The notes under the pieces are model-generated. The model did not search any database. It worked only from the letters and a program-made list of their open reading frames with translations, and was not told where the DNA came from. 42,704 nt of DNA, taken from a virus. The translations under genes were made by a program, and so were the position numbers. The stretch spans positions 1 through 42,704 of IMG/VR virus record IMGVR_UViG_3300025645_007429, one strand, 5' to 3'. This document shows positions 511 through 42,704 of this stretch, one piece after another (positions within the stretch are counted from its first letter, which is position 1; the number at the start of each line of letters is the position of its first letter).

Positions 511-741
511 GTCGCTAAAAATTAATTGAGTCATATACAGCACGCCAAGCATCTTACCATTCATTAATACTCAGTAACTCTCCTGTTTCACGTTGGGTGA
601 TTACCGACCGCGGCCTAAAATTAAAAAGCTAAAACGATATCAAGTGATTACCCATCAAACGGTATAAAAAACCGCTACCGCAAAAAAGCAAATTCCTATA
701 GCATCATTTATACCAATTGACATGGATGTGGCAGCGGCCAA
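511..741. other. Gene-free stretch between yhaV terminator and first attC
   Basis: I see no convincing coding sequence here. The stretch is AT-rich, with a near-repeat of GTGATTACC (around 597 and 643) and a small imperfect hairpin around 660-680 (CGGTA / TACCG). It may be the degraded end of a cassette or a promoter region. Confidence 0.4.
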
Positions 742-801
742 GTCCAACAAGCGATTTATGCCCCGCAAACAGCGCAGCGCATAAATACTAAGACGTTATA
801 A
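742..801 (+). other. attC site a0 (short)
   Basis: Opening box GTCCAAC (742-748) and closing box GTTATAA (795-801) flank a 60-bp hairpin-forming site with inner arms ATTTATG / CATAAAT. The expected crossover is between G795 and T796, so the next cassette begins at 796. Confidence 0.7.
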
Positions 802-816
802 ATTTTAAGAGGACAT

Positions 817-1836: not shown

Positions 1837-1841
1837 AAAAT

Positions 1842-1966
1842 TTATAACAAACAATTTAAGAGTTATTCAGCACGCTTGGCATTTTGGGTTTGAGTCAATT
1901 TTGGTGATTACTGTGCTCAATTGAGTTGTATGGTCGCGTGCTTCACACCTTAATTGGGCGTTATAG
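1842..1966 (+). other. attC site a1 (long, VCR-sized)
   Basis: Opening box TTATAAC (1842-1848) and closing box GTTATAG (1960-1966) bound a 125-bp site, about the length of Vibrio cholerae repeats. Outer arms CAATTTAAG and CTTAATTG pair almost fully. Confidence 0.85.
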
Positions 1967-2000
1967 GGCAAACTGGCATCAGTGTCTAACAAGGGACTAT

Positions 2001-2744
2001 ATGAATAACTTACCAATAGTAAATGTTTTCGAATCACCGTATGAGTTGTGGGAAGAGCGTGATCAAACATCAGAAGAGATTATGCAGTCTGGTGATTTTC
2101 ATCAAAGAGTGAAAGTAAAGCTCGAAGCCAAAGTATCTAATCATGTAGATGCGGCAAAGCATATGATTGTAAAAGTAGTAGATAATCAGTTGGAAAGATT
2201 CATCAAGGATTTCCTGAATCAATCTCTTAGTTACAAAAATATGAGGGAGGAAATGCCTTCTCAAACCCCCAAGTCCTTATCTGATTATCAAAGGAAGTTT
2301 CAAAGTTCTACTTTTGAGCAAGTATCAATTGATATCAATAATTATGGAAAAGCACTTAGTGAGGGGCAGTATTTGTTTCACGGAGGGTTATATCCAATAA
2401 ATATGGGAGAGTCCTTCATAACGGAAAGACCATTTTCTACAAGCTTCTGTCCACAAATAGCACTAAGAAATGCTGAGTGGGGAGGTAAAAGCTATGATGC
2501 TGGTGAGATCAATTTATTTGTGCTGCGCACAGCTAATCCTCAAACTAAAACTTTTTGTTTTAGACTGAATGGAACGGATAAAGGACATGAGGCGGAAGTG
2601 TTGTTCGCCGCCGGTGCAAAAATTACACTTCGTAGCAAAACCAAAATAAAGAGTGGTAAAGCATATAAAGCCTGCAGTCAGTATGCAGGTAGATTTCTTG
2701 AAAAAGAAATACCTTTCTATTTGGTTGAAGTCGATATCTCTTGA
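2001..2744 (+). CDS. Putative ADP-ribosyltransferase-fold toxin (cassette a2)
   Basis: The 247-residue product has, in order, FHGGL (126-130), FSTS (145-148) and HEAEV with E197-x-E199. This is the pattern of R-S-E class mono-ADP-ribosyltransferases (an aromatic-R-G strand, an S-T-S strand, and an E-x-E loop followed by a 'VLF..GAK' strand). The usual arginine of the first strand is a histidine here, so either activity is altered or the motif is an unusual variant. The start at 2001 is chosen because AAGGGA lies 6 bases upstream and the cassette boundary (1961) excludes the upstream in-frame start at 1926. Likely substrate unknown; a conflict or anti-phage role is inferred. Confidence 0.6.
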   Translation: MNNLPIVNVFESPYELWEERDQTSEEIMQSGDFHQRVKVKLEAKVSNHVDAAKHMIVKVVDNQLERFIKDFLNQSLSYKNMREEMPSQTPKSLSDYQRKFQSSTFEQVSIDINNYGKALSEGQYLFHGGLYPINMGESFITERPFSTSFCPQIALRNAEWGGKSYDAGEINLFVLRTANPQTKTFCFRLNGTDKGHEAEVLFAAGAKITLRSKTKIKSGKAYKACSQYAGRFLEKEIPFYLVEVDIS

Positions 2745-2751
2745 AAATGCC

Positions 2752-2851
2752 CTATAACAAGAAATTAAACAATGACAAAAAACAGTTGGCTTTTGCTCCT
2801 TCGTCGCTTATGTTGGCGAACAATTTTTTGCCTGTTAATTAGGCGTTAGCT
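2752..2851 (+). other. attC site a2
   Basis: Opening box CTATAAC (2752-2758) and closing box GTTAGCT (2845-2851) with pairing arms GAAATTAAAC / GTTAATT and an inner CAAAAAAC / ATTTTTTG pair; 100 bp. Confidence 0.85.
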
Positions 2852-2894
2852 AGATATTTTAAGTTTTTGTGAAAAATCTAAATAAGGAGTAGTA

Positions 2895-3467
2895 ATGTCA
2901 TTTAAAGACAAAATGGAAAATAATCCTACAATCACCATCGGAGTTTTCGTTATAGGTGCATTTGTCGCTGGCTGGACAGCTAGAGATTCAATAATTTCAG
3001 TATCAGGTCAAGAGATCTTGTCAAAATCAGAAATCTCAGAGCTTAAACTCTATGCAAAGCTTGGAAAAGAAGACCTAGTAAACAGAAATATCTCTTTAAA
3101 AGATAGAGTCTTTGAGCTTGAAACAAAACTTGCGTCTATAGAAGCAGTTGAGCCACAAGATCTAGTTGAAATTTCAAATGTCCGATTTGCACCAAAACCT
3201 GGCTCGCCAATTAAAGCCGGTGAAAATATTAAGGTAACTTTTGATTATAAGTTTGATGAAGGAGTAAAAGGTAGTATTTGGGCATTTACTACTGACAAGG
3301 CGTCTACTTATTCACCGTCTAAAGTATATTCGTCTGAGGGGACTTTTACTCAGAGCTTTAGTGTAGAGGATGCTGGCTGGATAAACACGGTTGACATTTT
3401 TGTAAAAGATGAAAATGGAAAACAAATAAAACGAGTAACATTGCCAGCCAGATATGAGTTTATTTAG
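2895..3467 (+). CDS. Membrane-anchored protein with coiled coil and beta-sandwich domain (cassette a3)
   Basis: This 190-residue protein begins with one transmembrane helix (about residues 12-30), then a charged helical stretch (about 43-80) likely to form a coiled coil, then a beta-rich region (about 95-190) with alternating hydrophobic strands like an immunoglobulin-type sandwich. The domain would face the periplasm if the N-terminus is cytoplasmic. AAGGAG lies 9 bases before the start. I do not recognise the family. Confidence 0.6.
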   Translation: MSFKDKMENNPTITIGVFVIGAFVAGWTARDSIISVSGQEILSKSEISELKLYAKLGKEDLVNRNISLKDRVFELETKLASIEAVEPQDLVEISNVRFAPKPGSPIKAGENIKVTFDYKFDEGVKGSIWAFTTDKASTYSPSKVYSSEGTFTQSFSVEDAGWINTVDIFVKDENGKQIKRVTLPARYEFI

Positions 3468-3567
3468 CTAACAAGAAAATGTAGTGGGACTGCTAACAGT
3501 TTGCTCGGTTTCACTACGTTCAACTAGTTTAGTAAACTATTATCAGCCCTTAATGTTGGCGTTAGTT
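3466..3567 (+). other. attC site a3
   Basis: Opening box AGCTAAC (3466-3472) overlaps the stop codon of the preceding gene; closing box GTTAGTT is at 3561-3567. Inner arms GTAGTG / CACTAC pair perfectly; 102 bp. Confidence 0.85.
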
Positions 3568-3598
3568 ACACTTAATCAATCCAGAAGGAATTTGTATC

Positions 3599-3976
3599 AT
3601 GCTAAAGGAGAGGGAGTTTGAGCTGATCAAGACTATTAATGGAAATAAGTTCTTGAAGAGAGAGGATTTCCCTAGCGATTCTGAGTTCGATTATTTGTGT
3701 AATCTAGCTATCGAAATGCTGGAGAAAGGTATTTTTCGCACCAGCATGAGTACCCCATATGTTCTGAATCGCCAAGGAAGTGGACCGAAATATTCAATAG
3801 TAGGAAAGTTAGAGTTGTCTACTGAGGCCCAGGACTTACTTCGGTTTGAAAGTTATTCTAACTATACTCAAAGCATTCGAAAGTCTCCTTTTTCGGATAT
3901 TGGTAACAGACTTAACTTGCTGGGTATTGTAGTCAGTATCAGCGCTATCATCGTTTCAATATTACTAGCGATTTGA
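3599..3976 (+). CDS. Small tail-anchored protein, possible winged-helix N-terminus (cassette a4)
   Basis: The 125-residue product is soluble for about 100 residues and ends in one strongly hydrophobic helix (about 104-125), so it is probably inserted in the inner membrane by its tail. The helical N-terminal half followed by a strand-like 'KYSIVGKLELS' stretch near residue 63 could be a winged helix, but this is weak. Family not recognised. Confidence 0.55.
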   Translation: MLKEREFELIKTINGNKFLKREDFPSDSEFDYLCNLAIEMLEKGIFRTSMSTPYVLNRQGSGPKYSIVGKLELSTEAQDLLRFESYSNYTQSIRKSPFSDIGNRLNLLGIVVSISAIIVSILLAI

Positions 3977-3979
3977 TGC

Positions 3980-4069
3980 AACTAACAAGCCGCTGAAATT
4001 CGTTACGGCCACAGAAAGCGTGGCTTTCACTAGGACTCGCTTCGCTCGCCTTCTAGCAAAGCGTTATGC
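3980..4069 (+). other. attC site a4
   Basis: Opening box AACTAAC (3980-3986), closing box GTTATGC (4063-4069). The inner part (TCGTTACGGCCACAGAAAGC, 4000-4019) closely matches the attC at 26414-26507 read on the other strand, tying array A and array C to related integrons. Confidence 0.85.
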
Positions 4070-4083
4070 TTCCAAGGAAAACT

Positions 4084-4341
4084 ATGGCTGAAGCACCAGA
4101 GTATCGTGAGTTCACCGGCACACAGGAAGGGTTCGACGAAATCGAGAGAAAATATTCTGACTCGAAGAATACCGTTGCTGTAGTTGGTCAGCGTACAGAT
4201 GGTGCTTACACGTATTTTGTTTACAAATGGGATATTAGTGATTGGGAATATATTGGTGCAGGGTACTGGTCGCCTTCTGAAATAGGCGGTTTTTTCCAAG
4301 ATTTAGATTCAGCTAAAACAGAGGCTTATCTGAACCTATGA
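4084..4341 (+). CDS. Small soluble protein of unknown function (cassette a5)
   Basis: An 85-residue protein. An in-frame ATG at 4066 lies inside the attC closing box, but AAGGAA just before 4084 favours the later start. Aromatic, beta-rich middle (YTYFVYKW, W-x-x-I-G-A-G-Y-W) suggests a small globular domain. No family recognised. Confidence 0.55.
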   Translation: MAEAPEYREFTGTQEGFDEIERKYSDSKNTVAVVGQRTDGAYTYFVYKWDISDWEYIGAGYWSPSEIGGFFQDLDSAKTEAYLNL

Positions 4342-4363
4342 ATTTAGTGAAAACCTCTGAAAA

Positions 4364-4418
4364 ACATAACAAAGCGCTATTGTCGCCGCTATCGTGGCTG
4401 CAACGTTACCCGTTATGC
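4364..4418 (+). other. attC site a5 (short)
   Basis: Opening box ACATAAC (4364-4370) and closing box GTTATGC (4412-4418). Pairing arms are short and imperfect, so this call rests mainly on the boxes and the position 23 bases after a cassette gene. Confidence 0.6.
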
Positions 4419-4700
4419 TCCGTCCTAACTGAGTTAACGAGAGTTGATTGCCATCGAGTAAAGACTCGGTAGCAACCATTAGAGAATCAAGGTGTTTTTG
4501 ATACTCTTTTTAACAAAAGGTGAGTGGATTGTTTTTTGAGTAAATAGTGTAATATGTCGATATCACGCATGATGTTGGATCTAATAGTTTTTTGGCGAAA
4601 TTGATTAGATCAAACAGCATCATGTGTGTCTACTTTTTGAATCTTATCGAATTTATCTGGGGATTCGCTAGATCGCGGCGGTATGCAAACGGGAGAAAAT
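4419..4700. other. Long untranslated leader of cassette a6 with two hairpins
   Basis: No gene is seen in this 280-bp stretch. It holds an imperfect hairpin (about 4446-4478, arms around GCCATCGAGT and ACTCGGTAGC) and a strong long inverted repeat at 4564-4585 / 4604-4628 (arms share CATGATG and GATCTAAT in opposite order). The space could carry the cassette's own promoter or a small RNA. Confidence 0.5.
4564..4628. repeat. Inverted repeat in cassette a6 leader
   Basis: Arms of 22 and 25 bases (4564-4585 and 4604-4628) can pair at about 20 positions around an 18-base loop. There is no T-run after it, so a simple terminator is unlikely; it may be an operator, an RNA structure or a mini-element. 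Confidence 0.6.
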
Positions 4701-5204
4701 ATGCAACGACAGATGGATCGTGACGAGCTAGCTTATTTTTACCACTGTGTAGGTAGAGCTATTTGGCACATGCAGTATGTGGAGCAAACTTTAGGGCAAA
4801 TGCTTCTTATTATGGGTAGAGACATCAAGCCAAATAGTCTAGACCCAGAAGAAGCGGAAAGCATGCTACTTTCTGTCCAAAAGAAAACTCTTGGCGCAAT
4901 CATCAATGAAGTTGTTAAGAAAAGTTTGTTACCAGCAGATATTGAAAATAGGTTGGAAAAATTCAATTCAGAGCGCAGGTGGTTAGTGCATAAATCGGTA
5001 ATCGAAAATGCTGATGACCTCTATAACACTCACAAGCGAGCTGATGTATTTAAAAGAATCGATGCGTTTACAAACGAAGCAATCCTGTTAAACAAGGATC
5101 TATTGGTCCCATTGGAGATGCATATTGTTAGTATCGGGCTTAATCCTGCCGAACTTGCAGAAAAAGCAGAACAAGAACTTCGCGCGTTGAAAGGGTTTGC
5201 ATAA
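4701..5204 (+). CDS. HEPN-motif protein (cassette a6)
   Basis: A 167-residue, mostly helical soluble protein. R92-R-W-L-V-H97 matches the R-x4-H HEPN signature within a helix preceded by 'LEKFNSE', the usual 'E-R-x-x-x-H' arrangement of small HEPN proteins. The start at 4701 has GGGAG 5 bases upstream; an alternative in-frame ATG at 4683 would add six residues. No antitoxin partner is obvious next to it. The downstream attC is reduced to its right half. Confidence 0.55.
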   Translation: MQRQMDRDELAYFYHCVGRAIWHMQYVEQTLGQMLLIMGRDIKPNSLDPEEAESMLLSVQKKTLGAIINEVVKKSLLPADIENRLEKFNSERRWLVHKSVIENADDLYNTHKRADVFKRIDAFTNEAILLNKDLLVPLEMHIVSIGLNPAELAEKAEQELRALKGFA

Positions 5205-5239
5205 AAAACAATTTTTTGCCTCTTAGTGGGGTGTTATAA
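5205..5239 (+). other. Truncated attC half-site a6
   Basis: ACAATTTTTTGCCT followed by a closing box GTTATAA (5233-5239) resembles the right half of the attC at 2752-2851 (AACAATTTTTTGCCT then GTTAGC). No opening box is seen; the left half seems to be lost, which would fix this cassette to the next one. Confidence 0.5.
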
Positions 5240-5272
5240 GTTCATCAATTAACATCCGGAGTTTGTAATAAC

Positions 5273-5926
5273 ATGGAAGAGAAAACTTATCTTGAAAAAA
5301 TTTGTGGCAATATGGGGACTGTTATGGCAACAACTCTTGTTGCTGCTTCCAGTGGTATTTTTTTAGCTCCTTTACTTCCAGTGTTAACAGCTTCAATTGC
5401 AAGTTCACGTGCAGAGAAACGTGTTGAAAATGCATTAGAGGATCTTAATATTCGATTATCGATGTATGAAGAACAAATACTGAGCATGAGTGATAATCAA
5501 TATAAATTAATAGGTGAAATTGTTAGCTCTATAATGCAATGTACAAGTGAACCTAAAATTGAATTACTTAAAAATGCAGCAGTAGGCTGTTTGCATGAAA
5601 CTCAAGTAGAAGATCATGAAGCATCTGTTTTATCTAGAATTTTAAGGGATATAACAGTACTAGAGTATAAATTCTTAATCACTCTTAGTAAGTGCTCAGA
5701 AATTGTTGTTAGAAGTTCCCCATTGAAAAACTTCAAGTTAAGAGAAGGAATGGTTGAGTTTCAGCCCAAATCCCTTGAGGCTAATTTATTGAACAATTTA
5801 GAGCGCCTAAACCTTTTACACACAGTAATTAGCGGGTTTGGAGTTGATATTTATTTTGAATTTTCGCCAGTTACGCATAAGTTACTAGCTTTGTGCGGTG
5901 AATCGAACGTATATCAAACGCCTTAA
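5273..5926 (+). CDS. Membrane-associated protein of unknown function (cassette a7)
   Basis: This 217-residue protein has one hydrophobic segment near the N-terminus (about residues 15-42, rich in A, T, L and P), then a long helical cytoplasmic-type part. GGAG is 13 or more bases before the ATG, a loose spacing, so the start is less certain. I see no catalytic motif and cannot name a family. Confidence 0.55.
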   Translation: MEEKTYLEKICGNMGTVMATTLVAASSGIFLAPLLPVLTASIASSRAEKRVENALEDLNIRLSMYEEQILSMSDNQYKLIGEIVSSIMQCTSEPKIELLKNAAVGCLHETQVEDHEASVLSRILRDITVLEYKFLITLSKCSEIVVRSSPLKNFKLREGMVEFQPKSLEANLLNNLERLNLLHTVISGFGVDIYFEFSPVTHKLLALCGESNVYQTP

Positions 5927-5979
5927 ACATCGCGGCCTGCGGCCGCTAGACTTGCTCGCCGTCTAGGCGTGCGTTAATC
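5922..5979 (+). other. attC site a7, end of array A
   Basis: Opening box CTTAAAC (5922-5928) overlaps the stop of the preceding gene; closing box GTTAATC is at 5973-5979. Inner arms TAGAC / GTCTA pair around a short loop. Phage-like DNA begins immediately after. Confidence 0.65.
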
Positions 5980-5993
5980 CATAGAAATTTTAA

Positions 5994-6136
5994 CCCGTTC
6001 TCTACCTGCGCCTCGGGATCTACATCAATCAAATCGCCCGGTTTAAAATCGGGCGATTTGTTCTCGCCTTCCACCCTCAGAATAAACGAGCGCTTACTGC
6101 ATTTGATCGGGTAGGGTAAAGCTCTACATCGAGGGG
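5994..6136 (-). pseudogene. Relic of a phage repressor (S24 domain fragment)
   Basis: Read leftward, this stretch translates to about 40 residues matching the middle of the intact repressor at 6399-7013: YPIKCSKRSF, then I-L-R-V-E-G-E, then DLI-x-VDP-x-AQVENG. The DNA matches too, at clearly less than full identity, so it is a diverged relative and not a recent copy. The catalytic serine of the S24 domain is replaced (VEGE-N-K-S-P where intact copies have VEGE-S-M-x-P), no start or HTH is present, and the reading frame shifts at the upstream edge. It points to an older related prophage or recombination at this spot. Confidence 0.8.
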
Positions 6137-6398: not shown

Positions 6399-7013
6399 TT
6401 ACAGCGCTTTGCCTGTGAATACCACTTTGCCGACGATGGTGCAGTTACCATTGATTTCGACAAATTTATTCGGCCAGTCGGGGTTTAGGGCTTTGAGGTA
6501 TTTTTTATTGCCATCGATGATCAGCTGCTTGAAGGTGGCTTGGTTTTCATCATCCAGGCGCGCCACTACATAGCTACCGTTCTCCACCTGTGCGTCGGGG
6601 TCGACATAAATCAAATCGCCTTCTTCGAACTTCGGCAACATGCTTTCGCCTTCCACTTTCACGATAAACGAGCGCTTGCTGCATTTGATTGGGCAAGGGT
6701 AAAGCTCAACATCGAGGGGCGCCACTTCGTGAATATCTGTCCACACACCTGCCTGCACCATGCTTATCAGTGGTAAATAGTTGCCAGCACTGGCGACCAC
6801 GGTCGCGTTATCCATTTCACCCACGCCAAAACGCAAAAACTCTGGAGAGGTCTTTAAGACTTCAGCTAGCCGCTCAAGATTTCTTGGGTTTTTAGTTATT
6901 CCCGCTTCTATTTTTTGCAATGCGGTTTGGCTTGTCGACGCGAGCTCAGCAACTTGGAGCTGAGTCATTCCTAAAGCTGTGCGAAGTTTTTTAATTCTTT
7001 CTGCAATATCCAT
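6399..7013 (-). CDS. Cleavable phage repressor (HTH-XRE + S24 peptidase)
   Basis: The 204-residue protein has an N-terminal helix-turn-helix (about residues 14-40, 'MTQLQVAELASTSQTALQKIE') and a C-terminal LexA/CI-type autopeptidase: cleavage pair A88-G89, nucleophile S124 (GESMLP) and K162 (ATFKQL). It would keep the prophage silent and be inactivated by RecA filaments during the SOS response. This differs from P2's own small non-cleavable C repressor and is more like lambda CI or the pyocin repressor PrtR. It is divergent from the Cro-like gene, with operators expected in the shared 7014-7155 gap. Confidence 0.9.
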   Translation of the reverse strand: MDIAERIKKLRTALGMTQLQVAELASTSQTALQKIEAGITKNPRNLERLAEVLKTSPEFLRFGVGEMDNATVVASAGNYLPLISMVQAGVWTDIHEVAPLDVELYPCPIKCSKRSFIVKVEGESMLPKFEEGDLIYVDPDAQVENGSYVVARLDDENQATFKQLIIDGNKKYLKALNPDWPNKFVEINGNCTIVGKVVFTGKAL

Positions 7014-12125: not shown

Positions 12126-12325
12126 GCTGGCGGATATCAGCCGCTATTGACAGAAGACCTTCGGAATCCGCCAATTGATGAGCCAGAATTAAGATAATAA
12201 AAACCACACTAGATAAGTAGTGTAAAAATAGAGATATAAATAAATTGGATTAGCCTGAACTCAACCTGTTAATACTCAAATCTGGATGCAATCAGATTCG
12301 ACAGGTTACTTTAACTCATTTCTTT
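12126..12325. other. Gene-free junction before array B, with hairpins
   Basis: Holds a perfect 6-bp hairpin ACACTA/TAGTGT (12206-12223) flanked by A-runs and able to end transcription on either strand weakly, and a nested hairpin at 12263-12307 (outer AACCTGT / ACAGGTT, inner AATCTG / CAGATT). No gene is seen. Confidence 0.5.
12206..12228. terminator. Possible weak terminator after the early operon
   Basis: ACACTA (12206-12211) pairs with TAGTGT (12218-12223) around a 6-base loop, with A-runs on both sides but only a low-GC stem. Position between the early operon and array B fits an insulator; strength uncertain. Confidence 0.35.
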
Positions 12326-12449
12326 GCGCGTTTTTCCTGATGGTGTATTTGATAAGAATCTGATAAGTTTTTGCAATACAAATAGTTAACAATGCGCGTT
12401 TTTACTGGTCTAATGAGGTAAACGCGCATGCACTAATAAAATGTTAGCC
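12326..12449 (+). other. attI-like site of array B (forward)
   Basis: This 124-bp block is repeated in inverse orientation at 29281-29405 with about 85% identity by eye. It ends in CTAATAAAATGTTAG (12433-12447). Class 1 integron attI ends in CTAAAACAAAGTTAG, with the same CTAA-7-TTAG spacing; GTTAGCC (12443-12449) is the crossover box, so the first cassette starts at 12444. A GCGCGTTT / AAACGCGC inverted repeat precedes it. The next gene begins 14 bases after the box. What makes it attI-like is its place at the head of an array and its lack of the twofold attC hairpin layout. Confidence 0.7.
12386..12414 (+). promoter_or_regulatory. Candidate cassette promoter inside attI-like site
   Basis: TTAACA (12386-12391), 17-base spacer, TCTAAT (12409-12414) is 5/6 to both sigma-70 consensus boxes and points into the first cassette, as integron Pc promoters do. 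The inverted copy at 29281-29405 keeps the spacing with weaker boxes (TTAATG, CCTAAT). Confidence 0.55.
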
Positions 12450-12462
12450 TCTAAGGAAGATT

Positions 12463-13272
12463 ATGGCAATCTCACAAGACTTTCTCGCCTACCATGAGTC
12501 AATTGGCGCAGAGCTAAAATCATCAGAAACTAGAATTAGGAATCTCATTGGTAGCTCTCATTGGGCTACAGATGGCGAGCATAAAGAGGGTATTCTCAGA
12601 AAGGTTATATCGGATTTTGCACCAGAAATTTATAGAGTGGGAACTGGTTTTGTTTGTTACCCAGGCGAAGCTAATGGGGATCAAAGTAACTCTGGACAAA
12701 TAGATATTTTAATTACGTCAAAAGCCAACCCGACGCTTTTTAAGAGTGGCGAGCTTCACTTTGTTACTCCGGATTGCGCCAGTGCCATTGTTGAAGTTAA
12801 GTCACGAGTTGCAAACGGAGAATCCCTTAGATGTGTATTGCAAAAGCTTAGCAACGACATAAAATCCATTCGTACGCATTCAGGTAATCCTAATAACGCA
12901 TGGGCTGGTCTCTTCATATATAACAGCGATAGATTGAGAGACAGTCAAGTCTTAGAAATGCTGCAGGAGATTACTAATGATGACCCATTAGGTGTTATCA
13001 ACTGTGTGTCGATAGGTGAGAGTGTATTTATACGGTATTGGGAAAATGGGCATGCCAGCAGCAATCTTGGCGAGGATCCAGTTTGGCATTCATATAATTT
13101 AAATAACTTATCACATGCATATTTTGTAAGTAACCTAGTGTCTCATCTATCTCCAAATATTGATGACACTCTATCTCAGGCTTGGTTTCCTGTCGAAGGA
13201 TCAAAAGAAGTTCATCGCTCACGTTACGCCATGTTAGAGCAAAGAGAATCATTTGAATTTGACCAAGGCTAA
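12463..13272 (+). CDS. DUF6602-like PD-(D/E)XK nuclease-fold protein (cassette b1)
   Basis: The 269-residue protein has 'GEHKEGILRKVI' (38-49), 'VGTGFV' (59-64), 'SGQIDILI' with D81, and 'AIVEVKS' with E111-V-K113. The D...E-x-K spacing is that of the PD-(D/E)XK nuclease fold, and the full pattern is that of DUF6602. Proteins of this type are found among mobile defence genes; the substrate is unknown. AAGGAAG precedes the ATG. The C-terminal residues run up to the attC opening box. Confidence 0.7.
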   Translation: MAISQDFLAYHESIGAELKSSETRIRNLIGSSHWATDGEHKEGILRKVISDFAPEIYRVGTGFVCYPGEANGDQSNSGQIDILITSKANPTLFKSGELHFVTPDCASAIVEVKSRVANGESLRCVLQKLSNDIKSIRTHSGNPNNAWAGLFIYNSDRLRDSQVLEMLQEITNDDPLGVINCVSIGESVFIRYWENGHASSNLGEDPVWHSYNLNNLSHAYFVSNLVSHLSPNIDDTLSQAWFPVEGSKEVHRSRYAMLEQRESFEFDQG

Positions 13273-13326
13273 CAAGTTTAGGCAATCGGACGCAGCAAAG
13301 CTGCGCCGTTGCTAAAGGCGTTATGA
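13267..13326 (+). other. attC site b1
   Basis: Opening box GGCTAAC (13267-13273, overlapping the stop) and closing box GTTATGA (13320-13326). Arms GGCAATCGGACGCAGC / GCTGCGCCGTTGC pair almost fully around AAA; 60 bp. The CGCAGCAAAGCTGCG core recurs in the array C site at 24971-25045. Confidence 0.92.
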
Positions 13327-13350: not shown

Positions 13351-14166
13351 ATGAACTGGAATATATTACAAATAGATGAAAGAGTTGGCTTACATCTCAA
13401 TTTTTTATTTTGGGTTGCAATCGTTTTGCCCTTTGTCTTTGCAATACTCTTGTCTATACCAGTTTATTTAGATTCAAATTTAGTCTTTAGTTGGACAGCT
13501 GAAGGGTATAAAAAGTTTTTAGAATTATACTCATTCCCCTTGTCACTCTTATCTTTATCTGTTCTTTTTGGGGTAATGATAGGCCGCTTTCATGGTTCAA
13601 AGCAAAGAGGAGTGGCGATTATAGAAAATGAAAACAATAATAAATTAAGGAACTTCTACGAGCATAGAAAATCATTTTATGAGCACATGGCTGACTTCGA
13701 CTGGAAAAACGCTAATGAGCGAGGGGTCGATTTTAAGCACCCTAAAAAATTATATAAACTGTTTTTTCCATCAAATTCACCCTTATCCTTCTCATTTATA
13801 TGTAATGAACAGGACTTGTTTGACAGATTAAAAAAGGTTGTGGATGATATCCTTCGTGATCCAAGATCCCCTCCTGACATCGAGGTTATTAAAGCTCTAT
13901 TTGACAACTTTGGCTGCGATGTTGATGAAAAAGCGTATTGTGAACATATTGATATGTATAATAAAGTTGATGGCGATGGTATTAATGTAGAGCTATGGTT
14001 AAGTGCACGAGATATGAGCTCTGCGCTTGGCTTAATAGAAGATTTAATTGAGTTTTCTTTGTTGTTTGTGGATTTGAATAAAGAGTTGGAAGACGGTGAT
14101 ATAACTCATGCATTTATGGATATATTGTATCCTCGTCAATCTTATAATCAAAATCAGGAAGCGTAG
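13351..14166 (+). CDS. Two-helix membrane protein of unknown function (cassette b2)
   Basis: 271 residues: transmembrane helices at about 16-40 and 55-77, then a soluble domain of about 190 residues rich in acidic residues. Two-helix anchors with a cytoplasmic domain are frequent among abortive-infection proteins, but no motif here proves that. GGAGTATGT stands before the ATG. Confidence 0.55.
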   Translation: MNWNILQIDERVGLHLNFLFWVAIVLPFVFAILLSIPVYLDSNLVFSWTAEGYKKFLELYSFPLSLLSLSVLFGVMIGRFHGSKQRGVAIIENENNNKLRNFYEHRKSFYEHMADFDWKNANERGVDFKHPKKLYKLFFPSNSPLSFSFICNEQDLFDRLKKVVDDILRDPRSPPDIEVIKALFDNFGCDVDEKAYCEHIDMYNKVDGDGINVELWLSARDMSSALGLIEDLIEFSLLFVDLNKELEDGDITHAFMDILYPRQSYNQNQEA

Positions 14167-14172
14167 AAAGAT

Positions 14173-14236
14173 TCATAACTAGTTGCTTAAACGGACACGT
14201 AAAGTCGGCTCGCGCTTCGCGCAGTTTAAGTTACGG
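14173..14236 (+). other. attC site b2
   Basis: Opening box TCATAAC (14173-14179), closing box GTTACGG (14230-14236). Arms TTGCTTAAAC / GTTTAAG pair, with a GCGC-TTC-GCGC tip; 64 bp. Confidence 0.8.
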
Positions 14237-14263
14237 GATATATCAACCAATAAGGAAGTTAAA

Positions 14264-14656
14264 ATGAAAAATGTTATCAAAATCAGTTTATTTACAATGA
14301 GTATGATGGTTTCGAGCATGTCTGTCGCCAACCAAATTTCTCCTGACTTTCTCAGGGAAGAAATTGAATTTGCTCATTCTCAATACTTAACAGGCACACC
14401 TGAAAGCGGAATCTATGCGCTACAAGCTTTAGCAAGAGTCCTTGAGTCAGACCAATCGAGTTCTCTACATTCTGAAGTGGGACCCAATAATTTGTCATTT
14501 ACATATCTGAGAATTGGGTTGATATACGAAAAGCTAGGAAGCGAATTTGAAGCAAGTGAATATTTCAATAAGGCTAGAATTGCTTATAAAGGTGAGAAAG
14601 TAGAAATAGCTCAATTGAGAGAGAGCGTCGCCTACATCGATGAAAAGCGCCGCTAA
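14264..14656 (+). CDS. Small exported TPR-like protein (cassette b3)
   Basis: The 130-residue product starts with a signal peptide (hydrophobic residues about 6-20, likely cleavage after S-V-A-N near 22). The rest is helical with 'YALQALARVLES' and 'LRIGLIYEKLGSEFEASEYFNKARIAY', a tetratricopeptide-type pair. AAGGAAGTT is well placed before 14264; an in-frame start at 14183 lies inside the attC and is rejected. Function unknown. Confidence 0.6.
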   Translation: MKNVIKISLFTMSMMVSSMSVANQISPDFLREEIEFAHSQYLTGTPESGIYALQALARVLESDQSSSLHSEVGPNNLSFTYLRIGLIYEKLGSEFEASEYFNKARIAYKGEKVEIAQLRESVAYIDEKRR

Positions 14657-14730
14657 CAAGTTGCCAACGTTCGCCGCAAAAAGCTCGGCTGGCCAAACAC
14701 TCGCATTTGCCCCTTGGCAAAGTGTTCTAC
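14651..14730 (+). other. attC site b3
   Basis: Opening box CGCTAAC (14651-14657, overlapping the stop) and closing box GTTCTAC (14724-14730). Outer arms GTTGCCAA / TTGGCAA pair; 80 bp. The closing box departs from GTTA, so it may recombine poorly. Confidence 0.75.
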
Positions 14731-14739
14731 GGAAGGATC

Positions 14740-15222
14740 ATGAAACCAGTAGAGTTAAGAAAAACGTATTTAGAGCATATTTCAAGGATGGATATTCCTG
14801 ATGACTTTCCGGAGATACGAGAAGAATTAGAAGAGCTTATTGTCTTCGACAATGGAGTATTTGCCTCATTTAGCCTATCAAACGACGATAAAGAAATTCT
14901 TTGTGAAATTGGTATTCCTCAAGAGTATCAAACTGGAATTGTATTTGAGCCAGATAGAGCACAAATAATCGAAGATAAGATTCGAATTGGTACTTCTACA
15001 AATGGTGGAGATGATGTCTTTTTGAAAAGAGATGGCAGCATCATTCTCCTAAATCATGATTACTTTATGGAAGAGGTTTTTATAGCCAGCAATATCTCAT
15101 GCCTTTTCTATTTTATAATCGCGTTTATGGAAAATGAATCACCAGATTTGTATGTTATTGATCAGGGCTTGAGGTCAAATAAAAATAACTATTGGTACAC
15201 TGATAGAAAGTACCAACCGTAG
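14740..15222 (+). CDS. SUKH (SMI1/KNR4)-like immunity-type protein (cassette b4)
   Basis: 160 residues. 'DKIRIGTSTNGGDDVFLKRDG' (spread over about 84-104) followed by 'IILLNHDYF' is the strand-GG-D-strand pattern of the SUKH superfamily, usually immunity proteins to contact-dependent or polymorphic toxins. ATG at 14740 follows GGAAGG; an in-frame ATG at 14707 is inside the attC. No partner toxin is seen next to it. Confidence 0.55.
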   Translation: MKPVELRKTYLEHISRMDIPDDFPEIREELEELIVFDNGVFASFSLSNDDKEILCEIGIPQEYQTGIVFEPDRAQIIEDKIRIGTSTNGGDDVFLKRDGSIILLNHDYFMEEVFIASNISCLFYFIIAFMENESPDLYVIDQGLRSNKNNYWYTDRKYQP

Positions 15223-24879: not shown

Positions 24880-24970
24880 ATCCATCATCCAACTAAAAAC
24901 TCAAACAGCTTTGAGACAAATGCATGTTAGCTCATCAGCTATAACTGGTGAATTTCAAAAAATTTCTATT
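24880..24970. other. Short phage-side junction of array C
   Basis: No gene. GTTAGC (24926-24931) and GCTATAAC (24938-24945) make a small palindrome with boxes like those of attC, which could be a remnant or a secondary recombination site at the array's end. Confidence 0.35.
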
Positions 24971-25045
24971 GGGTAACGCCTCAATAACCGGCGCAGCTTT
25001 GCTGCGTCCGGCGCCGAAGGCGCGAAGTTAATTGATTTGTTATGT
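24971..25045 (-). other. attC site c5
   Basis: On the - strand, opening box ACATAAC (25039-25045) and closing box GTTACCC (24971-24977). Core CGCAGCAAAGCTGCG matches attC b1; arms pair well; 75 bp. Confidence 0.88.
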
Positions 25046-25534
25046 ATCTGGGCCTGCAGAAATACCATTTAGCAGTGCCCGCATAGTTTCAGCACCATCT
25101 TCCATTCGCTTGCGCTCATCATAGAAACCTTCTGAGCCATGTTCTCCAGTAGAGTGCGTAATTTGAAGGCCATTCTTTATTAGATCTTTGGCGATTTGAT
25201 ACGACTCTGGAAACTCTGAACTGTGTTTTTCGAGAAATGCGAATGATGAAAGTATGAAACCTCTATTCTTGCCAATATCACTAGTACCGTAATATTTATC
25301 AGCTAATTCCTTTGCGCCAATACGTAATGATGTGATTTTCGCCAACTCATTTTTAGCTAGAGATAATTCCTCTTGCGTTGATTGGTTATATATAAATACT
25401 GAACCAACAACTGCTGTTAGCAAAAAACCATAGACAGCGTGCAGTAGTCGTGACTTAGCAGTTGGCGCAGCCATCAATAGAGATACGACTGATGAGACAC
25501 TACCAATAATTCCAAGCAAAATGTAAGAGTCCAA
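25040..25534 (-). CDS. Small membrane protein with helical cytoplasmic domain (cassette c5)
   Basis: 164 residues: two transmembrane helices near the N-terminus (about 4-22 and 30-50), then a helical domain of about 110 residues. The stop codon lies inside the attC opening box. Family not recognised. Confidence 0.55.
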   Translation of the reverse strand: MDSYILLGIIGSVSSVVSLLMAAPTAKSRLLHAVYGFLLTAVVGSVFIYNQSTQEELSLAKNELAKITSLRIGAKELADKYYGTSDIGKNRGFILSSFAFLEKHSSEFPESYQIAKDLIKNGLQITHSTGEHGSEGFYDERKRMEDGAETMRALLNGISAGPDT

Positions 25535-25550
25535 CTTTTCTCCTTAAGGT

Positions 25551-25652
25551 ACATAACGCCCCAAGCAGGGGCAACTTTTTAAGCTGGCTAAAATTAGGAG
25601 CGAAGCGACGGGAACCAGCTTAAAATTGTCCCGTTGACTTGGCTTGTTAGCA
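25551..25652 (-). other. attC site c4
   Basis: On the - strand, opening box TGCTAAC (25646-25652) and closing box GTTATGT (25551-25557). Long arms around TTTTAAGCTGG / CCAGCTTAAAA pair; 102 bp. Confidence 0.9.
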
Positions 25653-26396
25653 TTTAAGCTTTTGTCGAGCAGTAAGAATCAAATCTTTATGTAACTCAAA
25701 AAGCTCTGTACCAAAGTCGTTTAATTCCCTGATTTGCTCATCTACATGAGGAGGCCAATCCCATGCATTTCTATATGCATCTGGCACACACGAAAAGATC
25801 TCGCCATTACCAATTGCGTAAGACCTGTTCGCCAATGTATAGATAAAGTGTCGAGACTTTGTGATGAAGTTACTTCGCTTTTGTTCGAGTTCAGTATCTA
25901 AAAACTGCTTCTGAGCATTGTTCCACGTATGAACAAATGTATCCAAAGCTTTAACTTCTTTACCATGATGAGAATTGCCAAAATCATGCTCCTCCAAAAG
26001 CTTAACGTCTAAGCCATCTGAGGGAAGTAACTCAACAAACTCAGTGAATAGCTTTTTATCAACTTCAATTAACTCTTGTTTTTCTATATGCGCTAACTTG
26101 TTTTCTTTATAAACAAAAAACCTGTAACCGATATTGTGGAACAATGCTAACAGTATCACGGCAAAACCTAACCAATAGTCCGCCGTACTAGATTGAAGCT
26201 CTGCTAAGGAATAGTGTTCGCCGGAATTTAAGTTAAAAGTGTCTACAAGCCAATTATAAAAAAGTTGCTTTAAAGGAGTCGGTGTTAAAAGAAGAGTTAC
26301 TCCAGCACCGCCGACCAACCATGTGAGCTTGTTCGAGAAGTCAGGAAATATCCATTTTTTTAATATAATTTCTTTAACTTCTTTACGGTTAAACAC
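25647..26396 (-). CDS. Two-helix membrane protein (cassette c4)
   Basis: 249 residues; helices at about 23-45 and 73-92 with a periplasmic loop between, then a cytoplasmic helical domain (about 100-249) with conserved-looking 'LFTEFVELLPS', 'HDFGNSHH' and 'WPPHVDEQ'. I recall similar proteins in other bacteria, but no function. AGGG is placed before the start. Confidence 0.6.
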   Translation of the reverse strand: MFNRKEVKEIILKKWIFPDFSNKLTWLVGGAGVTLLLTPTPLKQLFYNWLVDTFNLNSGEHYSLAELQSSTADYWLGFAVILLALFHNIGYRFFVYKENKLAHIEKQELIEVDKKLFTEFVELLPSDGLDVKLLEEHDFGNSHHGKEVKALDTFVHTWNNAQKQFLDTELEQKRSNFITKSRHFIYTLANRSYAIGNGEIFSCVPDAYRNAWDWPPHVDEQIRELNDFGTELFELHKDLILTARQKLKC

Positions 26397-26413
26397 CCTT
26401 ACTCTCCCTTAAA

Positions 26414-26507
26414 TGCTAACGCATTACTAATGGGCTGCCGCAGCACAGGCAGTCCCGTGGAGGCCACGCTTTTTGTGGCCGGAACGAAATTAAGTAACTT
26501 GTTAGCT
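26414..26507 (-). other. attC site c3
   Basis: On the - strand, opening box AGCTAAC (26501-26507) and closing box GTTAGCA (26414-26420). The inner GGCCACAAAAAGCGTGGCC hairpin matches attC a4 closely; 94 bp. Confidence 0.9.
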
Positions 26508-26511
26508 AATT

Positions 26512-26820
26512 TCACGGAATTTCGCCAAATCGGTTACTCAACTGAATAGTACAATTATCAACAACCGATAAAAACATTTTTCTTAATAACCATATGGTTA
26601 CTATATAAACAAATAATACTAAGGCAGCTTTGTACGAAACAGCGCCGCTAAAAACCTCTAGCATCGTTGAGTAGGCTTGCGGTAAAACTATCATAAACAA
26701 AACACTGATACTGATCGCTCCCCATCTGTAAATGGCTTTTACAGCGCGTAAAATTTCCCTGCGCGGAAAATTTATGAGAGCAACTATCACAAAAAGAATT
26801 TTGATGGCTAATGTTGTCAT
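26512..26820 (-). CDS. Small integral membrane protein (cassette c3)
   Basis: 102 residues with three hydrophobic helices (about 3-18, 32-52, 60-82). 'FPRREILRAVKAIYRWG' separates the first two. Function unknown. AGGACG is placed before the start. Confidence 0.5.
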   Translation of the reverse strand: MTTLAIKILFVIVALINFPRREILRAVKAIYRWGAISISVLFMIVLPQAYSTMLEVFSGAVSYKAALVLFVYIVTIWLLRKMFLSVVDNCTIQLSNRFGEIP

Positions 26821-26920: not shown

Positions 26921-26996
26921 AGCAAACGTTTGGTTAAGGGGCGGGCTTTAGCCCATCCCAGTGAGCGCAGCGAACGATTTGAACCAGTTGTTATGA
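26921..26996 (-). other. attC site c2 (degenerate closing box)
   Basis: On the - strand, opening box TCATAAC (26990-26996); closing box GTTTGCT (26921-26927) departs from GTTA. Arms GGTT / AACC and GGGCTAAAGCCC tip pair; 76 bp. Excision of this cassette may be poor. Confidence 0.7.
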
Positions 26997-28229
26997 ATTT
27001 TTATTTCTCATGAAATACTCATAGTTTAACAAGCACTTAATTAACTGATTTAGAGAATGCATTAAACGATACGAATCTAATATTTTGCGTGTAAAACCTA
27101 AAAAGTAGATTTCATTTGGCTTTTCCTGCTTCATCCCCTCCTCTCTAGGGAAGTACGTTACTTTTTGAGAAACTTCGTCATATTCAGCTTTATAGTGTGC
27201 AACCGCATTTCTCAACTGATTATCAGCGACACTCTTTGAGATCGGTAGCCAAATATCATCAATGAATTCGAGTTTTTTACCAAATGGCTTATTAGCAAAG
27301 TCGTTAAGATTTTTAATCTTCTCATCTGAGAATTTATTGTGGTCACTACGTTTTAATAAATTATTAACACCGGCTACGAGTACAATTTGTCTGGATATTA
27401 TTTCTGAAATGTCTTTATAAAGATCCTTATAATTTTTGAATTCACGTGAAGACACACGATAAGGAACTTGCTCATTTCCATCGACATAATCTTTATCGTA
27501 GTCTAAAAATAGTGCAGGTCTGAGGGCTAGTTCTAGCTCCAATATTCTCGGGTAAATCTCAAAGCAATCCTCTTGAAGATTGAAAATGAATTTAGATTCA
27601 ACTATTTCTTTAACAAATGAGTCCATGATGTTTTTGTCTTTTTTGACAATATCATTGAACTTAGTAAGGTACAGACTGACATCTTCAGCATTAGATGTTG
27701 GGGTTGAAAACGGATAAAAAACCTTCGCAATAACACAATACATCATCATATTAATGTCACAGTCTTTAAACGATTTAGCAGGTTCAGCAAACTCTTTCTC
27801 TGCAAGAGCAGATAGGACTTTGTTTCTTTTTCTCTTGTATAAGTTGACCAAGCGCTCAATAACTTCATGCTTCTTGTACAACTGGTTCAACGAATCCAGT
27901 CTAAAGTTGTGGATTTGAAAATTTTCACGTCCAATACGACCAATAGCTCTAAGAAAAGGAGTCTGTCCCATCACATAAGGCTCAAATGACACTGGAAAAT
28001 CAATATGCAAGTCAATAAATGGGTTTTCACCAGTAAAGTGCCCATCCAATGGGTAGCTTTCTGCACCGTACATCTTGGGCTGTTTACCCTGTTCAACAGT
28101 TACTTCTATTCCAGATCCACAAGATGGGCAAGCAAACCTAAAAGGCTGAACATCTCGGTTAGACATACCAAAACGGCAATCAACTAACTCTCCACAGGTT
28201 GTACATTTTAATCTTTCATTAAAGTTCAC
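26991..28229 (-). CDS. Zinc-ribbon plus HEPN-motif protein (cassette c2)
   Basis: 412 residues. The N-terminus has a zinc ribbon (C9-x2-C12 and C34-x2-C37, from CTTCGE and CPSCGS). Near the C-terminus L-R340-N-A-V-A-H345 is the R-x4-H HEPN signature in a helix followed by more helices. The middle is helical and charged. A zinc-binding sensor joined to a HEPN nuclease would fit a defence protein, which is inference. The cassette is the second from the attI-like site. Confidence 0.6.
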   Translation of the reverse strand: MNFNERLKCTTCGELVDCRFGMSNRDVQPFRFACPSCGSGIEVTVEQGKQPKMYGAESYPLDGHFTGENPFIDLHIDFPVSFEPYVMGQTPFLRAIGRIGRENFQIHNFRLDSLNQLYKKHEVIERLVNLYKRKRNKVLSALAEKEFAEPAKSFKDCDINMMMYCVIAKVFYPFSTPTSNAEDVSLYLTKFNDIVKKDKNIMDSFVKEIVESKFIFNLQEDCFEIYPRILELELALRPALFLDYDKDYVDGNEQVPYRVSSREFKNYKDLYKDISEIISRQIVLVAGVNNLLKRSDHNKFSDEKIKNLNDFANKPFGKKLEFIDDIWLPISKSVADNQLRNAVAHYKAEYDEVSQKVTYFPREEGMKQEKPNEIYFLGFTRKILDSYRLMHSLNQLIKCLLNYEYFMRNKNS

Positions 28230-28252: not shown

Positions 28253-28300
28253 TCATAACGCCGCATTCAGCGGCTTGTCCGCTGCAATGCATTGTTATGC
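28253..28300 (-). other. attC site c1 (short)
   Basis: On the - strand, opening box GCATAAC (28294-28300) and closing box GTTATGA (28253-28259). Arms GCATT / AATGC and AGCGG / CCGCT pair; 48 bp. The preceding gene reads through the opening box to its stop at 28267. Confidence 0.9.
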
Positions 28301-29262
28301 GATGTTCTCATGGAGTGAATCCAAGACTCTATTTTTGACTTTTCTGCCGAATCCATTCGATATAGTTTCGCTTTGCAGTAGTACTGCGCGCCACTTGTGA
28401 GCCGGCTAGTTGTAGCTACTATGCCTTTTGTTGCACCAGCGTCATCGACTGTTGCCCAAAATGCACGAACCGAATCAACCTGGACAGGGTTGTGTTCAGA
28501 ATATTTTTTACACTGAACCATAATCATTTGTGGTCCAGCTATTGGATCATTCTTTCTTGCTATTACATCAATCCCGCCATCCCCCCGTCCTTTTGTTACT
28601 TCTACGTCGTAGCCATTTTTTCGAAAGTATTCACCGGTGAGGTATTCAAACTGACGCCAGTGTATTTCTCCAAGTTCATCTATTTGACGGGATAAATAGT
28701 CAATATATCTTTGGTCAAAGTAGCAATCCGTGTCTTCTGAGTTGGGTATTTCTTCTGATTCAAACAAAGCATCTAGAGGTAGAGCACCATTCCAATCTAC
28801 AGATTCAGGCATTTCATTATGGAAGACATACCGATCTTTGTAGTCTCTTACCAAGGCTCCAAAGTTTGACATTGACAAGAGTTCATTAGGAATATCACGT
28901 TTATACAAGGCATTTTCAGCGAGGTGATATTGAAGCACAGAACACGCTTCAACTTTTTTCATCACATCTTTTCCGTCTAGCGCAAATTGTTCAAGATTTT
29001 GTTCCACATAATCAATGACAACACCTGTCAAATCCCTGTCGTTTTCTAAAGCCCCGACCTTGTACATCAAATGAATGAATGCCTCTTCGAAATCTATCAT
29101 GTCGATTCGGATAACTTCTTCTTTCTCGCCCTCCCACCAACCTTCGGATATATCACTAAGAAAGCCAAGTGCTTTATTCTCCGACAGAGCCAAACCGGCC
29201 TTGATGCCGATAAGGTCAATCAAGTTGTCAATTAGGTGTTGTCTAGGTGACCAAATATGCAC
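28267..29262 (-). CDS. Mrr-type restriction endonuclease (cassette c1)
   Basis: 331 residues, starting at a GTG preceded by AAGGA. Residues about 1-190 are an unrecognised helical region. The C-terminal part is an Mrr catalytic domain: 'FEYLTGEYFRKNGYDVEVTKGRGDGG' region with D232 in IDV, and Q250-C-K252, giving the D...Q-x-K nuclease triad, then 'TKGIVATTSRLTSGAQYYC'. Mrr enzymes cut modified or foreign DNA. The last residues (NNALQRTSR) are encoded by the attC. It is the first cassette after the attI-like site, where expression should be highest. Confidence 0.8.
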   Translation of the reverse strand: MHIWSPRQHLIDNLIDLIGIKAGLALSENKALGFLSDISEGWWEGEKEEVIRIDMIDFEEAFIHLMYKVGALENDRDLTGVVIDYVEQNLEQFALDGKDVMKKVEACSVLQYHLAENALYKRDIPNELLSMSNFGALVRDYKDRYVFHNEMPESVDWNGALPLDALFESEEIPNSEDTDCYFDQRYIDYLSRQIDELGEIHWRQFEYLTGEYFRKNGYDVEVTKGRGDGGIDVIARKNDPIAGPQMIMVQCKKYSEHNPVQVDSVRAFWATVDDAGATKGIVATTSRLTSGAQYYCKAKLYRMDSAEKSKIESWIHSMRTSHNNALQRTSR

Positions 29263-29280
29263 GTAGAATCCTTATTTAAC

Positions 29281-29405
29281 GCATAACATTTTATTAGTGC
29301 GCATGCGCTTACCTCATTAGGCCAGTAAAAACGCGCATCATTAACTGCTTGTATTGCAAAGAACTTATCAGCTTTTTATCTAATACACCATCCGGAAAAA
29401 TGCGC
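29281..29405 (-). other. attI-like site of array C (inverted copy)
   Basis: The reverse complement of this block matches 12326-12449 at roughly 105 of 124 positions by eye, with one single-base gap. It ends in CTAATAAAATGTTAT (29283-29297 on the + strand reads ATAACATTTTATTAG). The crossover box GTTATGC is at 29281-29287, 19 bases before the GTG of the Mrr-type gene. A promoter like that in the other copy is kept, with weaker boxes. The match stops at both ends, so the copied unit is this site alone. Confidence 0.7.
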
Positions 29406-29765
29406 ATGCGCGTCTTCCAAACCTATTAACTAATTTGGGGAAAGTTTATACGAATGATTTTTAAGGGTTTTATAAATTATAGGCTGGATAAACGCGCAAA
29501 CTAATGAGTTTAAAAACACTCAAAAGCATCTAAATTTAAATACGACTGTATACCCATACATTGTTAGTCGCTTTACGATAGGGCCAAACATTGGGTAAAT
29601 AGATGAGATTTTGTAGGGCAATTCATTCGTCAGTTTTCAATTCACTAAATGAATGCCAGCCAGCTTTGGGTCAGAAATGATTTTAAATTTATATCTTGCG
29701 CTATAACTTCCCACATACCACCCAAAGCCTTTGCGGCTCGCCATACAACTGGCAACCATAGCCGC
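29406..29765. other. Gene-free stretch before the baseplate genes
   Basis: 360 bases, AT-rich, with no confirmed gene; it must carry the late promoter of the V-operon. I could not place an Ogr box by eye. GATTTTTAAGGGTTTTATAAATTATAGG near 29457-29484 could be promoter-like. A further short ACGCGCAAACTAATGAG stretch (29491-29507) resembles part of the attI-like site. Confidence 0.4.
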
Positions 29766-41630: not shown

Positions 41631-42704
41631 CTATTCTTTAAACTTATCATGCAGCTTATGTGGGAACAGCTGTGTATAAACTTGCCATAAAATATTTAGG
41701 TTTCTATGCCCTGTAACCTGAGCAACTTCCTCAATCGCATATCCCTTTTCAAACAGTCTACTAGCCCCTTCGCGGCGGAGATCATGGTAACGCAAATCAG
41801 TAATGCCAAGTTCATTACGAACACGCTGAAAGCCCGCTGTCACGGATTTGGCGTTATAGGGGAAAATTAAGTCATCAGAAACAGGTTGGCGCATAACAAT
41901 GTCAAACGATCCACCAAGCAAAGGCACAATCATATGGTTGCCTTCTTTTTTTCTTGGGTCCTTTCTATCTCGGACTAAAATCGTTTTATGGTCTTTGTTT
42001 AAGTCGACCCATTTTAATTTACATACTTCGCCAATGCGCATGCAGGTCAAAATACTGAAATCAAGCATGTCGATAAACGGGATGCGATTAGCCCCGTTTG
42101 GGCGGTAACTCATGCGTTGCTCAAGCCCTTCTTTTAATCGTTCAAGCTCATTCTCTGTCGGTCTACGGGTTCGCTTTTGGCTTTTACCCACTAACCCCAT
42201 TTCAATAAGAACAGGCACGGCCTCTTCAAAAACCTGAAAGTTAGCATCAATATTCCAGACGGGGGCGGCTTTTTTCATCACACTACGAAGGTAAGCAATA
42301 TCGTGATAAATCGTCGCGGGGCCAGCGCCAGCCATACGCCGATTTTTACAGTGCTCAATTAAATCGCTGGTCTTTAAATTGTTACTTCTTACTTTTGAAA
42401 TATCGCAGTCAATCAGCATACGAATAACGTATTGCTTAGTGCGGCCGGTTCTTGACCACAGGTCAGCATCTTCAAAAAAACGGTTAAGTAACTCACCGAT
42501 TAGAATCGCTTTATTCTTTTGCAGTACAGAATCATTTTCAATTGCATCGCAGCGGGCTTTGCCCCAAGTTCTAGCAACTTCCTTTTTACTGAAAGTTTTA
42601 GACTCACGATGTATAATTTCCCCACTTTCTTTAACGCGTATAGTGCAACGGTAGCTAAAGTCCCCGTTTGCCTTAGCGCGTTTTTCAATAGTAAATGACG
42701 CCAT
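41631..42704 (-). CDS. int: Phage tyrosine integrase
   Basis: 357 residues. Catalytic residues are visible: R223 (CMRIGE), a basic K near 248, H307-D-L-R310, H333 (TGHRN) and Y343 (VYTQL). An N-terminal arm-binding domain and core-binding region precede the catalytic part. It is a phage-type enzyme; the extra helix specific to integron integrases is not apparent. Its first codon is the last base of the window, so the attachment site next to it lies outside. Its place after ogr and its leftward direction differ from P2. Confidence 0.93.
   Translation of the reverse strand: MASFTIEKRAKANGDFSYRCTIRVKESGEIIHRESKTFSKKEVARTWGKARCDAIENDSVLQKNKAILIGELLNRFFEDADLWSRTGRTKQYVIRMLIDCDISKVRSNNLKTSDLIEHCKNRRMAGAGPATIYHDIAYLRSVMKKAAPVWNIDANFQVFEEAVPVLIEMGLVGKSQKRTRRPTENELERLKEGLEQRMSYRPNGANRIPFIDMLDFSILTCMRIGEVCKLKWVDLNKDHKTILVRDRKDPRKKEGNHMIVPLLGGSFDIVMRQPVSDDLIFPYNAKSVTAGFQRVRNELGITDLRYHDLRREGASRLFEKGYAIEEVAQVTGHRNLNILWQVYTQLFPHKLHDKFKE

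Follow-up and report, generated by a model that had tools for sequence, protein, structure and literature searches.

In the usual picture, an integron is a single platform consisting of an integrase gene (intI), one attI site, and one cassette array. The chromosomal integron of Shewanella oneidensis (SonIntIA; PMC3053210 and PMC9892861) has one intI and one attI, and its integrase is active (PMC3053210), an activity for which PMC3108266 cites Drouin et al. 2002. The closest described phage system is that of Shewanella phage M16-3 (Peduoviridae; MZ568829; Qi et al. 2023, PMC9892861), whose IntI was reported to be 95.3% identical to the S. oneidensis enzyme. A terminal motif described in the same paper, a Shewanella-type attI, is reported there at the head of the M16-3 CALIN as well as of the complete integron. 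One prophage has thus already provided an example of a phage CALIN headed by attI; the authors left open whether the integron parts preceded prophage decay, and their paper contains no description of exchange between four phages at one site. Scattered attC clusters are likewise already known in Shewanella: PMC9229058, in its available part, reports a peculiar amount of CALINs and SALINs, in genomes with and without intI, and treats them as platform-less arrays. In the literature searched (preprints and most subscription journals excluded), we found no report of cassettes being exchanged at a phage attI, nor of orphan attI sites forming a genus-wide family. Cassette insertion at attG sites, which are short and simple, has also been described for integrons.

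Here, we analyzed a 42,704-nucleotide stretch of viral DNA (referred to below as the window; IMG/VR record IMGVR_UViG_3300025645_007429) and a sequence block that occurs in it twice. The window resembles M16-3 in its phage family, its attI type, and the presence at S|V of an array that is headed by attI but lacks an integrase gene. M16-3, however, carries intI and an adjoining array, whereas in the window no intI was found and another orphan attI follows gpA. The attI type is also that of the S. oneidensis integron, but the window copies stand alone. As in the CALINs and SALINs of PMC9229058, cassettes bearing attC lie far from intI; in contrast to platform-less arrays, an attI unit heads most of the arrays tested here, and a right segment is present in the genomes that were examined for one. 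Insertion at attG, named in PMC12901181, shares with the present case the placement of cassettes away from the integron platform; the sites here, in contrast, are full attI sites of ~150 bp. We consider it probable that the block is an orphan attI, that is, a full Shewanella-type docking site without an integrase gene, and that phages, plasmids, and chromosomes carry such sites, on which an IntI with its gene at another location would act in trans.

Two inverted attI copies in one phage genome

The block at positions 29281 to 29405 (minus strand) matched a second copy at 12325 to 12446 (plus strand) with 88% identity over ~125 nt (E = 6.6e-39; BLAST against the window's own record, with one second copy found). 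This similarity is far beyond chance, and the pair 12370 to 12459 and 29271 to 29360 is the sole long inverted repeat in the window. The preliminary description of this DNA had correctly placed an inverted second copy here. It had put the differences between the copies at ~15%, concentrated outside the core; the measured figure is ~12%, and the last box also differs, through compensating 2-bp indels (AAACGCGCATGC--AC in copy 1 and AA--GCGCATGCGCAC in copy 2), in addition to scattered substitutions. Identity ends at GTTA, the integron crossover, with the crossover GTT at 29287 to 29285 (minus) in copy 2 and at 12443 to 12445 (plus) in copy 1.

Copy 2 (core of ~150 bp, 29284 to 29434, minus) heads the S|V array, contains the Shewanella attI motif of PMC9892861, and is 94% identical to the S|V copy of M16-3 and 85% identical to the M16-3 copy beside intI. 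It forms the 3' end of a left conserved unit of ~395 bp (29284 to 29679, minus), delimited by alignment to dozens of Shewanella loci that match from ~29670 to 29680 up to the GTT; the preliminary description had left this unit unmarked. A short direct repeat in the unit (TGACCCAAAGCTG, 29661 to 29674, minus) has a partner (TGTCTCAAAGCTG) at 24906 to 24920, and the two are suggestive, but only that, of the outer ends of an inserted unit. No terminal inverted repeats of a transposon were seen at the unit ends, which resemble short direct repeats. Copy 1 (12325 to 12447, plus) heads the gpA|Q array and lacks ~80 bp found upstream in the other copies; its last box is 2 bp shorter, which counts against reading it as an orphan attI.

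The label "attI-like" given earlier to the block can be replaced by attI. The block has the known attI sequence, including the crossover GTT, and the same type adjoins intI in M16-3 and in Shewanella chromosomes, with cassettes following. A very improbable alternative is that the block is a mere shared promoter or leader traveling with the cargo genes. At both places, the first cargo gene does follow the block immediately, read in the direction of transcription; however, matches to the block occur at the attI position beside intI, identity stops at the GTT and attC cassettes follow, and the S|V unit has no sigma-70-like match. A promoter scan of both units gave nothing above chance, and the block could have a promoter function in addition to its role as attI.

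attC-bounded cassettes behind both copies

We aligned 18 candidate attC sites from the window and M16-3, which served as seeds of a covariance model (R1). These sites have the classical R''-L''-L'-R' architecture with one extrahelical base; 91.7% of the alignment cells are paired, and both sides are changed in 60 cells, compared with 19.2 in shuffles. Two home-made detectors (a stem regular expression and ViennaRNA folding) were too insensitive and were dropped in favor of the covariance model. Matches in the window are confined to three arrays. Most of the strong window sites are themselves seeds, so that their E values follow by construction; the nonseed sites are those at 28254 to 28298, 1844 to 1964, 5911 to 5977, and 14653 to 14731.

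Five attC sites lie behind copy 2, all on the minus strand. The first cassette gene (28267 to 29262) encodes an Mrr_cat nuclease-like protein (Pfam PF04471, E = 6e-26) and is followed by an attC at 28254 to 28298 (E = 6.6e-7). The second gene (26991 to 28229; phrog_13366, no assigned function) precedes an attC at 26922 to 26994 (E = 3.2e-11, seed). The third to fifth genes span 25040 to 26820 (open reading frames at 26512 to 26820, 25647 to 26396, and 25040 to 25534), with seed attC sites between them at 26415 to 26505 (E = 2.3e-14) and 25552 to 25650 (E = 6e-13). After the last attC (24972 to 25043, E = 8.3e-14, seed) comes a right conserved segment (GTTACCCAATAGAAATTTTTTG..., 24906 to 24977, minus), which has the identical place in four phages and is related to the right segment of chromosomal copies. 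Behind copy 1, on the plus strand, the gpA|Q array has one clear and one weak attC. Its first gene (12463 to 13272) encodes a DUF6602 protein resembling NucC and PD-(D/E)XK nucleases (Pfam PF20247, E = 3e-14; PADLOC PD_DExK, E = 1e-14), followed by an attC at 13269 to 13325 (E = 1.7e-10, seed); further genes span 13351 to 15222 (13351 to 14166, 14183 to 14656, and 14707 to 15222), with the weak attC at 14653 to 14731 (E = 0.012). Both attI sites of the window are directly followed by nuclease-type cargo.

Cassettes begin where identity between the copies stops, on the 3' side of attI, and the attC arrays are on the attI strand. Both arrays have two or more attC sites, one of the two at gpA|Q being weak, and no integrase gene, as is required of CALINs, but they are attI headed, a feature outside the CALIN definition. 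It is hardly credible that IntI placed these cassettes at ordinary genomic sites by attG-type events, a known behavior of integrons, with the block as a bystander. At every place, a block of ~150 bp with all attI boxes precedes the cassettes, and the crossover is the last base pair of the block; the target is a full attI rather than a simple genomic site.

A third array, near the left end (619 to 5977, plus), begins with the end of an IS91-like cassette (619 to 799). R1 placed attC sites at 1844 to 1964, 2754 to 2850, 3468 to 3565, 3982 to 4068, and 5911 to 5977 and a weak one at 4366 to 4417 (E = 0.3). No canonical attI for this array was found within the window, nor is an intI gene encoded in its 42.7 kb. 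The phage integrase gene at 41631 to 42704 (minus; Pfam Phage_integrase) does not encode an IntI, to which its product shows 19% local identity (E = 0.5). The first base of the record belongs to the ATG of a yhaV toxin gene and its end is the ATG of the phage integrase gene; therefore, the record was probably cut at genes, leaving the left end open, and this phage may carry intI just outside the window. That such a phage-borne intI, just to the left, serves both attI copies in cis, as in M16-3, we regard as unlikely. The left-end array does match the M16-3 integron array in orientation and place, and the record is cut there, but the array is preceded by the IS91-like cassette end and the toxin gene instead of by attI and intI, and in other genomes a large distance separates most members of the family from intI. 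Two further features of the left end were recorded. The YhaV-type toxin gene (1 to 459) is at the very edge of the record, with its antitoxin absent from the window. A 122-nt direct repeat (78% identical; 5995 to 6116 and 6577 to 6698), with one copy in the repressor gene and the other just past its 3' end, appears from its sequence to be a partial duplication of that gene.

Different cassettes at orthologous places in related phages

M16-3 was the only phage in the collection that carries the block, and it has two records there. One M16-3 copy (38737 to 38587) lies between the annotated integron integrase gene, which has a LexA site, and the cassette array; the other (14426 to 14622) stands at the head of cargo genes, with baseplate gene V on one side of them and the tail completion genes on the other. 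In the window, M16-3, L005, and L007, the S|V flanks are ~90% identical, and these four phages have in common the place of attI and the right boundary (GTTACCCAATAGAAA). Between these limits lie 4,308, 2,374, 1,490, and 1,049 bp, respectively, and the interiors are unrelated, save for one common attC type and the last cassette of M16-3 and L005. This cassette (637 bp, 99.7% identical) becomes identical at GTTAGCCACTAAG, exactly at the G^TT crossover, and the bases before the shared GC/GTT differ, a pattern that is the signature of site-specific cassette movement. On the gpA side, attI follows gpA in three phages (the window, L004, and L085). Both places behave as cargo hotspots of P2-like phages (Peduoviridae), with variable genes at gpA|Q and S|V and flanks conserved in M16-3, L004, L005, L007, and L085. 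It counts against the orphan attI reading that none of the phages has an S|V attI without cassettes, and no phage record spans joined S|V flanks; an empty S|V site, with attI fused directly to the right segment, was also not found in 130 Shewanella genomes.

Differing cassettes within identical scaffold limits, at orthologous places and with G^TT boundaries, require that site-specific recombination took place after the scaffold was in place. This speaks against the idea that the arrays are fossils, i.e., units left by old integrons that lost intI, copied into phages passively by homologous recombination, and no longer recombining.

The suggestion that two sites had been maintained for some time agrees with these data, as both places predate this phage. 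Whether the copies are conserved by locus or by phage, a question raised along with it, received a divided answer. Synteny supports both places, and the S|V copies of the window, M16-3, and L005 are near each other in the tree of attI copies, together with chromosomal copies. Strict clustering by locus did not hold, however: the S|V copy of L007 stands apart, closest to chromosomal copies and to the L004 copy on the gpA side. Nor are the two window copies each other's nearest neighbors. The tree has ~128 columns, not enough to establish whether copies cluster by locus or by phage, and in AU tests a single S|V clade was borderline (P = 0.057, against), while a clade of the two window copies was not rejected (P = 0.157). 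The places are thus conserved by synteny, and the attI sequence itself may track the lineage of the host, possibly through conversion with copies in the host genome.

A dispersed family of attI sites in Shewanella

Seven Shewanella genomes, the first in which the block was found, hold 3 to 12 copies each. Of 130 genomes of the genus, scored for no more than six places each, 69 have matches; twelve fully scored genomes, most of them single-contig chromosomes, have 3 to 18 matches each, a few of which are fragments. The earlier argument that a single source integron would call for two separate captures or a copy within the phage is not borne out in that form: the copies need not share one integron, being members of a large dispersed family that reaches 17 to 18 attI copies in a single genome. 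Around 54 chromosomal copies, all 107 attC hits (E ≤ 0.01; loci L137 and L142 overlap and have some hits in common) are on the attI strand and 105 are downstream, at 47 of the 54 loci; around 21 second-set loci without the block, there was no attC hit. Copies within one genome are alike for ~150 to 600 bp left of the GTT and then have nothing in common until a right segment of ~75 bp, which lies behind the last attC and was seen in two closely studied genomes. At trmL, genomes of two species (G116 and G059) have the same flanks, attI unit, and right segment with no cassette in common, and the flanks are contiguous, leaving the place empty, in G044, G066, and G021.

An IntI match was found in 9 of 19 tested genomes, two of them with fragments only, and an intact intI is usually single and beside one attI copy. 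The other 10 genomes bear attI copies and gave no intI at E < 1e-15; therefore, the enzyme must come and go there, or activity has ended. The missing intI genes fit the reading of the arrays as fossils, as do the similarity of copies within a genome, which conversion would give, the hybrid or altered state of some attI copies, and the lack of intI remnants upstream of orphan copies, where only three intact neighbors were found; on that reading, even the loss of intI is old. Nevertheless, the attI boxes, which in 103 copies without a neighboring intI in the data show 90 to 97% consensus on average, stay conserved in several genomes in which upstream DNA diverges beyond detection. Taken with the exchanged cassettes described above, this leaves the fossil explanation improbable, and we favor orphan attI sites that may still be active.

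Block copies also occur on 19 plasmid records. On IncC plasmid pN069_1 of Enterobacter hormaechei (L010, 6001 to 6650), an orphan Shewanella-type attI stands immediately before the fosfomycin resistance gene fosG, which has an attC after it, indicating that members of the family have spread to plasmids of clinical Enterobacterales; a similar place is present in Citrobacter and Escherichia coli plasmid records. Recombinase genes beside the IncC copy were considered as the cause of dispersal and ruled out, as they are absent beside other copies.

Several other observations concern the surroundings of the units. In three genomes, a two-gene element, encoding a tyrosine recombinase 31% like IntI and an IS91-type transposase-like protein, starts precisely at the crossover of attI and has an attC at its end. 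This element occupies ~2.4 kb directly behind attI at L126, L127, L128, L129, and L142, its end is the one also found at 619 to 799 of the window, and its last ~30 bp are borne by hybrid attI/attC scars (L130, L137, L141, L144, and L145). The tyrosine recombinase adjoining several attI copies was accordingly rejected as an IntI, as it looks like part of this element inside a cassette. Many chromosomal attI units are flanked by REP-like Shewanella repeats, left of the unit and beyond the right segment (for example, GGTCACTGTTGCAACAATGGCAATC... on the left and GATTAGCGAGACGACCGTCC... on the right; L102 to L112 and L148 to L153). Providencia plasmids (L166, 4001 to 4072) have just the 72 bp at the outer end of the left segment, at 87% identity, near a tyrosine recombinase gene, a possible hint as to what moves the attI unit.

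Proposed role of orphan attI sites and implications

In the mechanism that we propose for orphan attI sites, a SonIntIA-type integrase, with its gene on a coresident element or at another place in the host genome, would act on the phage attI and join the attC of a free cassette to it at G^TT. Insertion would put new genes immediately after attI, always in one orientation, and older cassettes could be lost via attC × attC recombination. The phage would contribute the landing site only, one for each cargo hotspot (gpA|Q and S|V), and its two sites would be members of the dispersed family, composed of the attI unit, cassettes, and the right conserved segment. We lean, if only somewhat, toward a broader view of Shewanella as possessing a distributed integron, in which numerous attI scaffolds, each lacking an integrase gene and delimited by a left and a right segment, on chromosomes, in phage hotspots, and on plasmids, are fed in trans by a single or visiting IntI, and phages use them as standard cargo ports, e.g., for nuclease genes.

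Compared with the single-platform picture, the landing site is here uncoupled from the enzyme and multiplied, and whether one IntI serves many attI sites per cell becomes directly testable. Arrays headed by attI are missed wherever intI is the search key, and an orphan attI family would account for the scattered attC clusters that PMC9229058 describes in this genus. Such sites would give phages and plasmids precise uptake from the host cassette pool, including nuclease and resistance genes.
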